Shown: piece after piece, positions 25,129 through 31,317 of the stretch | Position numbering within the stretch: position 1 is the stretch's first letter | Layout of the letters: every line of letters begins with the position of its first letter | Assembly: GCA_015233895.1 (NCBI GenBank) | Contig: JADFXG010000028.1 | Location: 1-42,639, forward strand | Length of the DNA stretch: 42,639 bases | Reading direction: 5' to 3' | DNA from: Nitrospirota bacterium | GTDB lineage: Bacteria > Nitrospirota > Thermodesulfovibrionia > Thermodesulfovibrionales > Magnetobacteriaceae | The notes under the pieces: model-generated | Seen by the model: only the letters and a program-made list of their open reading frames with translations | Database searches by the model: none | Told to the model about the DNA's origin: nothing | Position numbers and translations under genes: made by a program

Positions 25129-25399
25129 ATACCGAGTTGAGACCGTTGCAAAATTCCCAAAATGTGGGAAAAGTATTTCCCAATTAATACCGAGTAGCAG
25201 CCTAAAATATAATAATGATGAGATTACCACGTCGCTATCGCTCCTCGTAATGACGGATAGGTACGCCCACGCACAGCCCACGCCGTCATTGCGAACCCCC
25301 GCAGGGGGTGTGGCAATCTCATCCTTTTTCTATAACATTTTGTTATATTTTTGAACTCAACTTTGGTGTTATAATATTTTTGCAACGGTCTCGAGTTGC
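25129..25399. mobile_element. MITE-like repeat element, copy 1 (271 bp)
   Basis: The stretch is identical, base for base as far as I can read, to 31047-31317. The ends carry an inverted repeat: GAGACCGTTGCAAAA at the left and TTTTGCAACGGTCTC at the right. A nested palindromic REP-like core lies in the middle (GAGATTACCACGTCGC... to ...GGTGTGGCAATCTC). It has no coding capacity for a transposase; short frames inside are repeat sequence. Confidence 0.85.
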
Positions 25400-27266: not shown

Positions 27267-29186
27267 TCACCTGACAGGTGAAAGAAAGTGTTTGCCGTCG
27301 GTTTTCTCATAATTGACCTTAAAAAGAATATCACTCCATTGTTTTGTGGAATTATCAAAAGCCTCACCATACGTGTGCCAAAAGATGTCGTAAGGGGTGG
27401 CAATGTAAACATATGTATATCTGCCGCTTGACAACTGCTCAAACCACTCCCTGGTTGTTATATTACAAGTCCAGATGTCTCCGTCAAAGAACGGTTTCCC
27501 CAGTGACCAGCATCCCATGTTAAAACGCCGTGGAAGCAGTTCGTAGGAGACAACCCTGTGTTCAAATCCGGTTGTTGCTAAAAACACAATAAAAACGCTG
27601 CTATTAGCCGGAGTTTTTGATTTAACAAAATTTATCTGCGGACTAATCTTGTTTCTGAACCATTTTGTGTCGTAATCGGGATGGGCAAATGCGGTATTTA
27701 TATTAAGATTCTTAAGAATCGGGTAATGGTAAAAAAACACTGCCATAAAAAACACATAGAAAATTAATAATTTATATTGCCTTAAAGCGGAAAGAACTCC
27801 GCCAGTGTCCTGTCTGCATTTAAAAATGCTCTCAGGTTGTACAAAACCATAGAAGAGCAGTGAAAACGATAACAGATATGTAGCAGAGTATCTTTCAAAC
27901 GAGGCAAGGAGTTTTCCCTCATAAGGGCCCAGATTAAACAGATATACCTTGAGAATTCCAGCAATATAAATTATAAAAAAAAGTGTCATAGTGGAAAACA
28001 CCCACAAAATGGAGGCTCTTCTGCCAGACCTTAATATGAACAATATGCCAAATAAGGCAAAAAACACTGCAAACCAATGTTTTACGTTAAATGTGCCGAT
28101 TTCACGTCCCTTGTCTTTTATGGCGCTAAAAAAATTACTTACTATGGTGCGCTGGTCGTCGTTTTTTGGAGACCTGACGGCATCCATTAGAGACTGCCCT
28201 GATGACTGAATTAGATTTGGAATTTGGCCTCCGTTTTCGTGTTTTATATGTGCTTTCCAACTTTCAGAGGTTATTAACGGTGATAAAACAAAAATTAAAA
28301 GAGTAATAACAACAGGCAAAGTCCTGTTTAATTTAAGAGATGATTTATCAAAAAAATTCTTTAAAATAAACGAGGCTGAAATTATGACAGTTACAGCGAT
28401 AGCAAAGAAAAGTCCCGATGCTTTAAAAAGGGTTAGAGCACACAAAACAGGTACATACAAAAGCAAAGACGTATCTTTTTTGTTGCCGCCTCTGAAATAA
28501 GCCGTCAGCGCCATGCCAAAATAAACACCAAGCACCTGATCAACCATAATGGAAACAGTGGTTTGAAAAAAGACAATAATCAGGGTATAAAAAAAGGCTG
28601 TAGTTAGTATTATAAAAGGCGTATGTCTCTTAAATGAAAACTCTCGGAAAAAAACCACAACAGGGGTAAACAACAGGACAAACTGGGCAAAATATAGGGT
28701 GTGTTCGTTAAAGCCGGAAATAACAGTAAAGTAGTATTGAAACAGATTTGCGCCAGGACTGTAGTACCAGAAAGTGACGGCCCCTTTTGGTACACTGAGT
28801 GCTCCGCTTTGATACATTTCCTTTGTCATCAGTCCCCAGTGGGAAAACTCATCCCAGAAGGCGAGTGTATAGCCGCGGGTTTTAAATAAAAATAACCCCG
28901 ATATGACCCAAAATGTGGCAATTCCAGGCGTTAGAAAATATTCTAAAAGCAAATCTGATCTTAATCGTATTGTAATTACAATCAGAGCCAACACAAGGAA
29001 AAGCATCCCAGTGCCAAATACAATGAAACTGCCGGACTTTAACGCTCCAAAAAGCGAAAACGCATATAGGAGACACACCACAAGCGATATGGCTGAAAAC
29101 AGGGAAAGCTCCATATCCTCCCTCATGAGATACTTAACAGCCGCAGCATAACCCAGTATAGATAACACAACAATTATTTCATTCAT
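27267..29186 (-). CDS. Polytopic membrane protein, possibly GT-C glycosyltransferase
   Basis: The 639-aa protein has at least 11 hydrophobic spans. Between the early helices is a loop, TRGYTLAFWDEFSHWGLMTK, with an acidic WDE motif like the catalytic Asp-containing first loop of GT-C transferases. A SPGANLFQYYF segment follows, and a soluble C-terminal part of about 120 residues begins after the last helix (HPDYDTKWFRNKI). The GT-C idea is inference; it could also be an O-antigen ligase-like or unrelated membrane protein. It ends 20 bp from the TetR start on the same strand and is divergent from the response-regulator genes. Confidence 0.75.
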   Translation of the reverse strand: MNEIIVVLSILGYAAAVKYLMREDMELSLFSAISLVVCLLYAFSLFGALKSGSFIVFGTGMLFLVLALIVITIRLRSDLLLEYFLTPGIATFWVISGLFLFKTRGYTLAFWDEFSHWGLMTKEMYQSGALSVPKGAVTFWYYSPGANLFQYYFTVISGFNEHTLYFAQFVLLFTPVVVFFREFSFKRHTPFIILTTAFFYTLIIVFFQTTVSIMVDQVLGVYFGMALTAYFRGGNKKDTSLLLYVPVLCALTLFKASGLFFAIAVTVIISASFILKNFFDKSSLKLNRTLPVVITLLIFVLSPLITSESWKAHIKHENGGQIPNLIQSSGQSLMDAVRSPKNDDQRTIVSNFFSAIKDKGREIGTFNVKHWFAVFFALFGILFILRSGRRASILWVFSTMTLFFIIYIAGILKVYLFNLGPYEGKLLASFERYSATYLLSFSLLFYGFVQPESIFKCRQDTGGVLSALRQYKLLIFYVFFMAVFFYHYPILKNLNINTAFAHPDYDTKWFRNKISPQINFVKSKTPANSSVFIVFLATTGFEHRVVSYELLPRRFNMGCWSLGKPFFDGDIWTCNITTREWFEQLSSGRYTYVYIATPYDIFWHTYGEAFDNSTKQWSDILFKVNYEKTDGKHFLSPVR

Positions 29187-29314: not shown

Positions 29315-29689
29315 ATGAAAGTGCTGATAGTGGATGATGAGAGTGATTTCGCAACAGCGCTGTCGGAACGGCTACAGTTGAGGGGGTATGAGGCAACGGC
29401 TGTGTTTTCAGCACAAGATGGTTTTGCGGCTTTTACAAGTAACCCGCCCGATATAGTTTTTCTTGACGTCAGAATGCCGGGTGTTGACGGGATTGCCGCT
29501 TTTAATGAGTTTAAAAAGATAAATCCTGATGTGGAAATAGTCCTCATTTCGGGACAGTTACAAACAAACGAAAATCTCGGCAGAGTAAAAGAATTTACCT
29601 TTGATTTTCTTGTTAAACCGGTTGATATAAACGACATAATCAAGAAAATAAAAGAGGTTTCTGCCAGAAAAAACGCAGCAGAAATTTAG
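29315..29689 (+). CDS. Single-domain response regulator (receiver)
   Basis: The 124-aa receiver domain has KVLIVDDESDF (acidic pair), VFLDVRMPGVDG with the phospho-Asp, IVLISGQL (Ser in the Thr/Ser place) and FLVKPVD with the conserved Lys. There is no output domain, so it acts like CheY/Spo0F by protein contacts. ATG 29315 begins the domain, but no good ribosome binding site precedes it; the frame is open to ATG 29210. The LCIB-receiver fusion gene follows 63 bp later on the same strand. No histidine kinase is nearby. Confidence 0.88.
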   Translation: MKVLIVDDESDFATALSERLQLRGYEATAVFSAQDGFAAFTSNPPDIVFLDVRMPGVDGIAAFNEFKKINPDVEIVLISGQLQTNENLGRVKEFTFDFLVKPVDINDIIKKIKEVSARKNAAEI

Positions 29690-29752: not shown

Positions 29753-30931
29753 ATGGATCATAAAAGTTTTCTTAAAAAATCAGTTACTATTCCTCAACTA
29801 TGTGAACACATAAAAGAATTAATGGAAAAATATGACATTTTCCTGGGTAAAAACGCTATTCTTGTAATCATAACCTGCCTTGATGACCAGTGCTCAACTG
29901 TAATAGAGTTTATAAAGCGGGAAATGAGAAAATTTCATCCTGCAAAGTATGGTGATACAGATGATTCTGACGACTTAATTCATCTTGAAAAGTTTTATGG
30001 TATGAGACTATTTGGCGGGATTTTCATCCCGAAGGTAAAAACATATGAGAGCCTTTTGCCTGCGTCACACCATATTCCTGAAAGAAATGACGGTAAGTTA
30101 TTAATATTAAACTTCTCCCATATCGGCTATGACAGCAACACAGGCAGCTTTGGAGTCATGGTGCGCTACGGACATGAGAAATCATCGCCAGCTTGTGGTG
30201 CTATAAAGTTCTGTTACGATAAGATATTGGCAGAAGATGACCCTCCAGCCGATGCCGACTTAAAATCCCTTTCAAAACATATCAAGAAAGTTGTGAAAAA
30301 GTATAAAATTAAAAAAGAGGAAAATGGATACGATATTTTAGAAGTTACCCTGAGGGCTTTTGACGACCAGATTCCCTGGGTAACGGAGCAGCTGTCGCAT
30401 CTGGCGGTAACTGACCAAATAAGTATATTATATATGGGCGGCGTAGAGGTTGATTACAGTAAAAACTGCGATGAGCTTAGCAGTGACAGGATGGTAATAT
30501 TAAAAAGATTGTACATAGACAAAAGCGGGAAGGTAGAGACAATGGATAAAATGCTGACTGTACTGATAGTGGATGATGAGCCGATAGTGGGAAAGAGGCT
30601 TAAACCGGCACTTGAGAAAATGGGCTGCGAGGTGGAGATTTTTGAAAATCCCAGGCTTGCGCTTAGCCGCATTATGGAAAAGGAATTTGATGTGGTTGTA
30701 ACCGACATCAGAATGGATGAGGTGGACGGCCTTGAGGTTTTAGAGACAGTCAGAACCAAGTCAGAGCGGACAAAGGTTGTGTTGATAACCGGCTACGCAA
30801 TGATGGAACTGGCTCGTCAGGCTATGGAAAAAGGAGCATTTGATTTCATAGCAAAACCATTCAAACCGGATGACCTGCGTAACGTAATCATGAAGGCAGC
30901 CGAGTCGCTGGGATTTACGGATTTAAAATAA
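29753..30931 (+). CDS. LCIB-like carbonic-anhydrase domain fused to a response-regulator receiver
   Basis: This 392-aa protein has two parts. Residues about 1-255 resemble the LCIB/theta-type carbonic anhydrase family: ILVIITCLDDQ (Cys42, Asp44), LLILNFSHIGYDSNTG (His123), VMVRYGHEKSSPACGAI (Arg138, Cys148). The Cys/His/Cys set and the GxxxRxGxExSxxCGA-type ending are the zinc and substrate positions known for that family. Residues 264-392 are a full receiver: VLIVDDEP (Asp274/275), VVTDIRMDEVDG (phospho-Asp318), LITGYA (Thr346), FIAKPF (Lys368). Met264 is preceded by GGGAAGG, so a separate receiver could also be made. It lies next to a single receiver gene. A role in CO2/bicarbonate sensing or a repurposed domain is inference. 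Confidence 0.7.
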   Translation: MDHKSFLKKSVTIPQLCEHIKELMEKYDIFLGKNAILVIITCLDDQCSTVIEFIKREMRKFHPAKYGDTDDSDDLIHLEKFYGMRLFGGIFIPKVKTYESLLPASHHIPERNDGKLLILNFSHIGYDSNTGSFGVMVRYGHEKSSPACGAIKFCYDKILAEDDPPADADLKSLSKHIKKVVKKYKIKKEENGYDILEVTLRAFDDQIPWVTEQLSHLAVTDQISILYMGGVEVDYSKNCDELSSDRMVILKRLYIDKSGKVETMDKMLTVLIVDDEPIVGKRLKPALEKMGCEVEIFENPRLALSRIMEKEFDVVVTDIRMDEVDGLEVLETVRTKSERTKVVLITGYAMMELARQAMEKGAFDFIAKPFKPDDLRNVIMKAAESLGFTDLK

Positions 30932-31046: not shown

Positions 31047-31317
31047 ATACCGAGTTGAGACCGTTGCAAAATTCCCAAAATGTGGGAAAAGTATTTCCCA
31101 ATTAATACCGAGTAGCAGCCTAAAATATAATAATGATGAGATTACCACGTCGCTATCGCTCCTCGTAATGACGGATAGGTACGCCCACGCACAGCCCACG
31201 CCGTCATTGCGAACCCCCGCAGGGGGTGTGGCAATCTCATCCTTTTTCTATAACATTTTGTTATATTTTTGAACTCAACTTTGGTGTTATAATATTTTTG
31301 CAACGGTCTCGAGTTGC
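31047..31317. mobile_element. MITE-like repeat element, copy 2 (271 bp)
   Basis: This copy is identical to 25129-25399 over its full length as read by eye and in the same orientation. It has the same GAGACCGTTGCAAAA/TTTTGCAACGGTCTC end repeats and nested REP-like core. The sequence beyond both ends differs between copies, which defines the element borders. Confidence 0.85.

Follow-up and report, generated by a model that had tools for sequence, protein, structure and literature searches.

Can a carbonic anhydrase serve as the output of a two-component response regulator? This question is raised by one open reading frame of a Nitrospirota bacterium of the family Magnetobacteriaceae (GCA_015233895.1), whose genome (G000) comprises 3.7 Mb in 65 contigs. 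The whole stretch of DNA analysed, hereafter the window, is its contig JADFXG010000028.1 (G000:C28; 42,639 nt). The frame (29753-30931, +) codes for 392 aa from an ATG, with GAGGAAA shortly 5' of the start, and a first-pass annotation had described it as an LCIB-type carbonic anhydrase domain fused to a response-regulator receiver; the frame and all the residue numbers then given (C42, D44, H123, R138, C148, D318 and K368) proved correct. Response regulators with enzymatic outputs include CheB methylesterase, GGDEF/EAL and PP2C proteins, and the gene resembles these in joining an intact receiver to a domain of an enzyme family, but differs from them in that the output belongs to a carbonic anhydrase family and is placed before the receiver. 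We know of no described response regulator with a carbonic anhydrase output, and text searches of the open-access literature, which are weak evidence, found neither an LCIB-receiver protein nor a carbonic anhydrase as a response-regulator output; the parts are known, and the combination appears to be new. Our preferred reading, drawn from sequence comparison, is that the gene encodes a response regulator with an LCIB-type carbonic anhydrase output, joined to a SulP anion-transport module, and we give it a probability of roughly 0.55.

Family assignment of the N-terminal domain

The N-terminal domain (residues 1-262; 29753-30538, +) matches the LCIB_C_CA profile PF18599 over residues 104-241, well above the cut-off (E 7.7e-16; 58.5 bits against 25) and across 71-212 of the 223 profile positions. 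The reference family, LCIB/LCIC (PF18599; PDB 5k5w, 5b5x, 5b5y and 6kfs), is of the beta type and is also classed with the theta carbonic anhydrases. When the single sequence was searched against the PDB, LCIB, LCIC and PtLCIB4 came out on top with weak E-values, and profiles were therefore built from 13 proteins of this bacterial family (A1) and from 12 canonical Nitrospirota LCIBs (A3). Compared by hhalign, A1 and A3 matched with a probability of 96.8% and an E-value of 2.3e-10 over 189 columns (template 31-224 of 249), showing that the homology to LCIB extends over the whole domain, beyond the motif block. The solved LCIB structures also align over the whole domain with a joint-alignment profile, which itself includes canonical LCIBs, and the C-x-D-E, H-x-P, H, R-x-G and C-G blocks are in register with them. 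A chance motif match is rejected by the profile E-values and by the invariance of the residues described below, and the LCIB-type assignment, borne out by the Pfam score, the hhalign match and the conserved residue set, is all but certain. AlphaFold models, whether from the single sequence (pLDDT 43.1) or from the window protein with one near-identical relative only (pLDDT 34.8), were too poor to use.

The protein shares with LCIB/LCIC the C-x-D / H-x-P / H / R-x-G / C-G-A residue set in addition to the profile match, but it differs from canonical LCIBs in several respects: the identity is ~15-20% in the joint alignment, an insertion of ~20 residues precedes YGMRLFGG, the CxD motif holds Leu rather than Arg or Ser, and a receiver is fused. 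A second, divergent LCIB-like subfamily of ~380 aa was seen at L040 7731-8882, L041 7200-8345 and L039 6750-7880; it has a long C-terminal extension and keeps the C-S-D-E, H and C-G motifs, and in G231 a gene of this subfamily has DabA and proton-antiporter-like genes a few kb away. A weak PF18599 match in G243:C4 lay inside a longer frame unlike LCIB and was set aside.

Predicted zinc site and catalysis

Six residues, C42, D44, H107, H123, R138 and C148, are invariant in the 13 family members and in 13 canonical LCIBs, and a joint alignment of 19 sequences has 13 invariant columns (C42, D44, G89, H107, P109, H123, G134, R138, G140, C148, G149, A150 and G230). In the LCIB family two Cys and a His bind zinc, and an Asp-Arg pair forms the dyad of the beta-carbonic anhydrases. 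Transferred by homology, the zinc ligands of the window protein would be Cys42 of the CxD motif (Cys42, Leu43, Asp44; 29876-29884, +), with which CLDD begins, His123 (30119-30121, +) in FSHIG, and Cys148 (30194-30196, +) in the CGA motif of ACGA, while Asp44 would have as its partner Arg138 (30164-30166, +), the first residue of RYGHEK. A further invariant histidine, His107 (30071-30073, +), an addition to the residues named in the first-pass annotation, corresponds by alignment to His88 of PtLCIB4, and the middle position of C-x-D aligns with Ser47 of the same protein; both His88 and Ser47 are mutated in deposited structures (5b5z, which carries the His88 change, and 5b60). The middle position is Leu in 12 of the 13 family members and Pro in the other; Chlamydomonas LCIB and LCIC have Arg there, as do nearly all canonical Nitrospirota LCIBs, while PtLCIB4 and 6kfs have Ser.

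By homology, catalysis by the LCIB domain is probable. However, Chlamydomonas LCIB and LCIC keep the fold and the zinc site without carbonic anhydrase activity in vitro (PMC8825250), and the domain could instead be a non-catalytic CO2/bicarbonate sensor or scaffold, which would bind inorganic carbon or zinc and either affect the receiver, through its phosphorylation or lifetime for instance, or recruit it to SulP. The low identity to canonical LCIBs and the Leu in CxD are compatible with such a role, as is the placement of the receiver at the C-terminus, unlike that in most response regulators. At the same time, the predicted metal and catalytic residues are all invariant across deep divergence, the gene is under the strong purifying selection expected for a retained active site, and receiver-less, stand-alone copies occur across the family, which argues that the LCIB domain has a use of its own. 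We consider the non-catalytic role unlikely.

The receiver and the origin of the fusion

The receiver domain (residues 270-379; 30560-30889, +) matches PF00072 with an E-value of 1.1e-29 and is complete, as the first-pass annotation had it. D274 and D275 of the acidic pocket, the predicted phosphoacceptor Asp318 (30704-30706, +), T346 at the Thr/Ser position and Lys368, the conserved receiver lysine (30854-30856, +), are all in place, Asp318 and Lys368 in conserved columns of the receiver alignment, and it is nearly certain that this receiver is competent. The claim that the two domains form one protein also holds: a survey of homologues found the same fusion, intact and with low dN/dS, in four genomes of one genus, and it is therefore neither chance nor an assembly join, all the more so as one of the four genomes (G079) is a single contig. 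A scan for promoters and terminators gave nothing above expectation.

PF18599 is present in 44 of 296 genomes of the phylum, whereas the LCIB subfamily of the window is restricted, two marginal matches apart, to one family (f1) in the 230 genomes of the class that were searched. In a tree of LCIB domains the four fusions group together (100/98) within a clade of nine copies (100/100), which points to a single event in the genus g1, and the remaining f1 copies (G096, G132, G148 and G301) are stand-alone. The fusion thus arose once, and the LCIB from which it derives is a stand-alone form confined to family f1. It is under purifying selection in the four genomes, with dN/dS of ~0.06-0.13 in the LCIB part and ~0.02, where measurable, in the receiver, for which the comparison between the window and G079 gave pN 0.010 and pS 0.397. 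Since the fusion is confined to one genus and homologues elsewhere work without a receiver, it could be argued that a receiver gene merely landed in frame behind LCIB, without regulatory effect. Such an accident is very improbable, given that the fusion persisted in four genomes under this strong constraint on the receiver, that all receiver residues are intact, and that receivers are also fused to SulP and to CytK2 in the same module. A scan of genome contigs gave a single match, Nitrospirae bacterium nDJH6bin1, the nearest named relative, whose LCIB domain is 97% identical; no relatives were found in the viral contigs or plasmids searched. PMC8353452 lists nDJH6bin1 with the magnetotactic Nitrospirae that have Wood-Ljungdahl CO2 fixation and a sulfur metabolism.

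Genes adjoining LCIB in relatives

In the window the fusion gene is flanked by genes for a membrane protein, TetR, a MacB-type exporter and ManC; no histidine kinase or SulP adjoins it there, both being on other contigs. The module is scattered in this genome, with SulP-CytK2 at C21 (L076), CytK2-receiver and a dCache kinase at C1 (L077) and the LCIB-receiver in the window; a second run, SulP-CytK2-receiver, is found at C3. The arrangement differs in relatives, where SulP and CytK2 adjoin the LCIB gene in six genomes (G096, G172, G132, G300, G301 and G302; the LCIB gene is fused in one), and in two of the six a dCache histidine kinase and a receiver adjoin as well. G096 has the same-strand run SulP-STAS (742 aa), CytK2, CytK2-receiver, dCache histidine kinase, receiver, receiver, LCIB-receiver, and G172 has SulP, CytK2, CytK2-receiver, dCache kinase, receiver and an unfused LCIB; the order is SulP-CytK2-LCIB in G132, G300, G301 and G302, and G304 has CytK2-LCIB at a contig end. 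In another genus (G152), three adjoining genes code for a PAS kinase, a 376-aa member of a different LCIB subfamily and a fusion of SulP-STAS with a receiver. The neighbourhoods are not independent events, since the genomes are related. For the same reason no statistical test attaches to a co-occurrence seen among the 12 genomes searched, in which the large SulP is found in the high-quality genomes carrying the LCIB clade and is absent from the clade-less G148, G236 and G242. Taken with these limits, it is likely that LCIB and SulP/CytK2 share a pathway, and the CO2/bicarbonate link proposed from the window alone gains support from the SulP, kinase and receiver genes adjoining in relatives.

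C-terminal receiver fusion is a repeated device of the module, as LCIB-receiver, CytK2-receiver and SulP-receiver proteins all exist, which suggests direct recruitment or switching of the effectors instead of transcriptional control. The receiver fused to SulP groups with the receivers fused to CytK2 (97/97 in the tree). A SulP-STAS protein with a C-terminal receiver (836 aa) is encoded at L039 3908-6418, with an LCIB-like gene and one for a PAS histidine kinase as its neighbours. The fusion of a cytidylate-kinase-like domain (PF13189, CytK2) to a receiver was read at L034 3811-5037, at L077 7316-8566 and in relatives, and it adjoins a dCache histidine kinase in most genomes, while stand-alone PF13189 proteins repeatedly follow SulP genes. 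At G305:C244:5546-8377, in a metagenome-assembled genome, CytK2-receiver and dCache kinase share one 967-aa frame, which is either a real fusion or an assembly error.

The anion carried may be sulfate, because SulP is far nearer to the plant sulfate transporter SULTR4;1, its nearest PDB structure (314 bits), than to 6ki1 (86 bits), which we take to be BicA, and because sulfur compounds serve these bacteria in respiration. Sulfate reduction is likewise encoded by magnetotactic Nitrospirota (PMC8353452), and a gene of the TauE family (sulfite exporter type) lies 3' of the G096 cluster. In a sulfate or sulfur-anion module of this kind SulP would import sulfate and LCIB would supply the bicarbonate counter-ion or buffer pH, with no carbon uptake; phospho-control of the LCIB enzyme would be compatible with it. 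We know of no role of LCIB-type carbonic anhydrases in sulfate uptake, which speaks against it. As for the transporter, SulP proteins vary in their substrates, few of which have been characterised (PMC10880623), so likeness to a solved structure does not settle which anion is carried. We rate the sulfate module as somewhat unlikely.

Two receivers and their probable kinases

A single-domain receiver (29315-29689, +; PF00072 E 3.3e-21), 124 aa from its ATG in a frame open from TTG 29210 and with its Asp codon at 29465-29467 (+), ends 63 bp before the fusion gene on the same strand, and the first-pass annotation had suggested that the two might act in one phosphorelay. This is not clearly so. 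The kinase specificity of receivers is usually set by alpha1 and the beta5-alpha5 loop, and there the upstream and the fused receiver are identical at only 2 of 14 and 4 of 16 positions. The upstream receiver groups with those that follow the dCache histidine kinase, with a support of 88/99 that falls just under the starred level, and the fused receiver is not of that type. A dCache kinase followed by a single-domain receiver is found in G096, G172, G079 and G132; at C1 of the window genome, where the kinase occupies ~22.6-24.3 kb, the receiver after it is missing, and a relative of that receiver sits 63 bp 5' of the LCIB-receiver in the window and in G305 (nDJH6bin1). In G079 the single-domain receiver accompanies the kinase and does not precede the fusion gene, whose flanking genes are those of the window (the 639-aa membrane protein and ManC). 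An obligatory partnership of the upstream receiver with the fusion is rejected by this absence and by the differing contact residues.

Among 150 candidates scored in the window genome, only two other receivers pass E 1e-28, one at C2 and one at C3. The C3 receiver, which ends the run SulP-CytK2-receiver, is ~65% identical to the fused one and shares 8 of 14 alpha1 and 10 of 16 beta5-alpha5 positions with it. The C2 receiver, identical at 13 of 14 and 14 of 16, is one half of a conserved receiver-kinase pair whose kinase, at ~313.6-315.2 kb of C2, has HisKA and HATPase domains; the pair was read directly in G000, G079, G132, G172 and G242, with the kinase domains confirmed by Pfam in all but G132. 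Because the contact segments are nearly equal, the C2 kinase would be the likelier phosphodonor for the fused receiver, and we infer that the two receivers of the window may serve two inputs.

A possible phosphorylation switch

For the preferred reading, an LCIB-type response regulator tied to SulP transport, we hypothesise the following mechanism. The LCIB domain would bind zinc through C42, H123 and C148 and interconvert CO2 and bicarbonate in service of the SulP transporter; the membrane kinase of the receiver-kinase pair at G000:C2 would phosphorylate D318, and phosphorylation would alter how the LCIB part assembles, where it is placed or how active it is. In this way CO2 hydration could be kept in step with anion transport and with what an autotrophic metabolism requires of CO2/bicarbonate, and a second input to the module might come from the dCache kinase and the receivers that belong to it, namely CytK2-receiver and the single-domain receiver 5' of the fusion gene. 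The main doubts come from the inactivity of some LCIBs in vitro and from the closer likeness of SulP to SULTR4;1 than to 6ki1. A phosphorylation-switched carbonic anhydrase, that is, two-component, post-translational control of CO2/bicarbonate interconversion together with SulP transport, is a tentative proposal, to which we give slightly less than even odds.

The fusion, together with the anion transporter and the sensor kinase adjoining LCIB in relatives, suggests that these cells may control CO2/bicarbonate handling by protein phosphorylation. To our knowledge, the control of carbonic anhydrases and bicarbonate uptake in autotrophic bacteria is mostly described as transcriptional or as exerted by small-molecule binding. 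If true, response regulators would gain a new kind of output, carbonic anhydrase, in a module that in one genus carries a receiver on the transporter too. A receiver on an LCIB-type enzyme would give direct phosphorylation control and a simple genetic handle, a single Asp; a bacterial LCIB with a built-in switch could also make the conditional activation of LCIBs directly testable, and the fusion offers a route to inorganic-carbon handling in uncultured magnetotactic-type Nitrospirota. The module resembles the SulP/BicA plus carbonic anhydrase toolkits of autotrophs (PMC10880623) in that SulP-STAS adjoins the LCIB gene in relatives, but differs from them in having an LCIB-type rather than a classical beta-carbonic anhydrase, additional kinase, receiver and CytK2 genes, a SulP nearer to SULTR than to BicA, and SulP and LCIB apart in the window genome.

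Other features of the window

The 639-aa membrane protein (27267-29186, -) is without a Pfam match and adjoins the LCIB-receiver also in G079 and G305. Two identical 254-bp elements, at 31057-31310 and 25139-25392, have perfect 15-bp terminal inverted repeats (GAGACCGTTGCAAAA) and enclose between them the genes for TetR, the membrane protein, the single-domain receiver and LCIB-receiver. Their terminal sequence has 81 copies in the genome (43 forward, 38 reverse) against 1 in a backward-read control, often as facing pairs ~240 bp apart, as in a MITE-like family.
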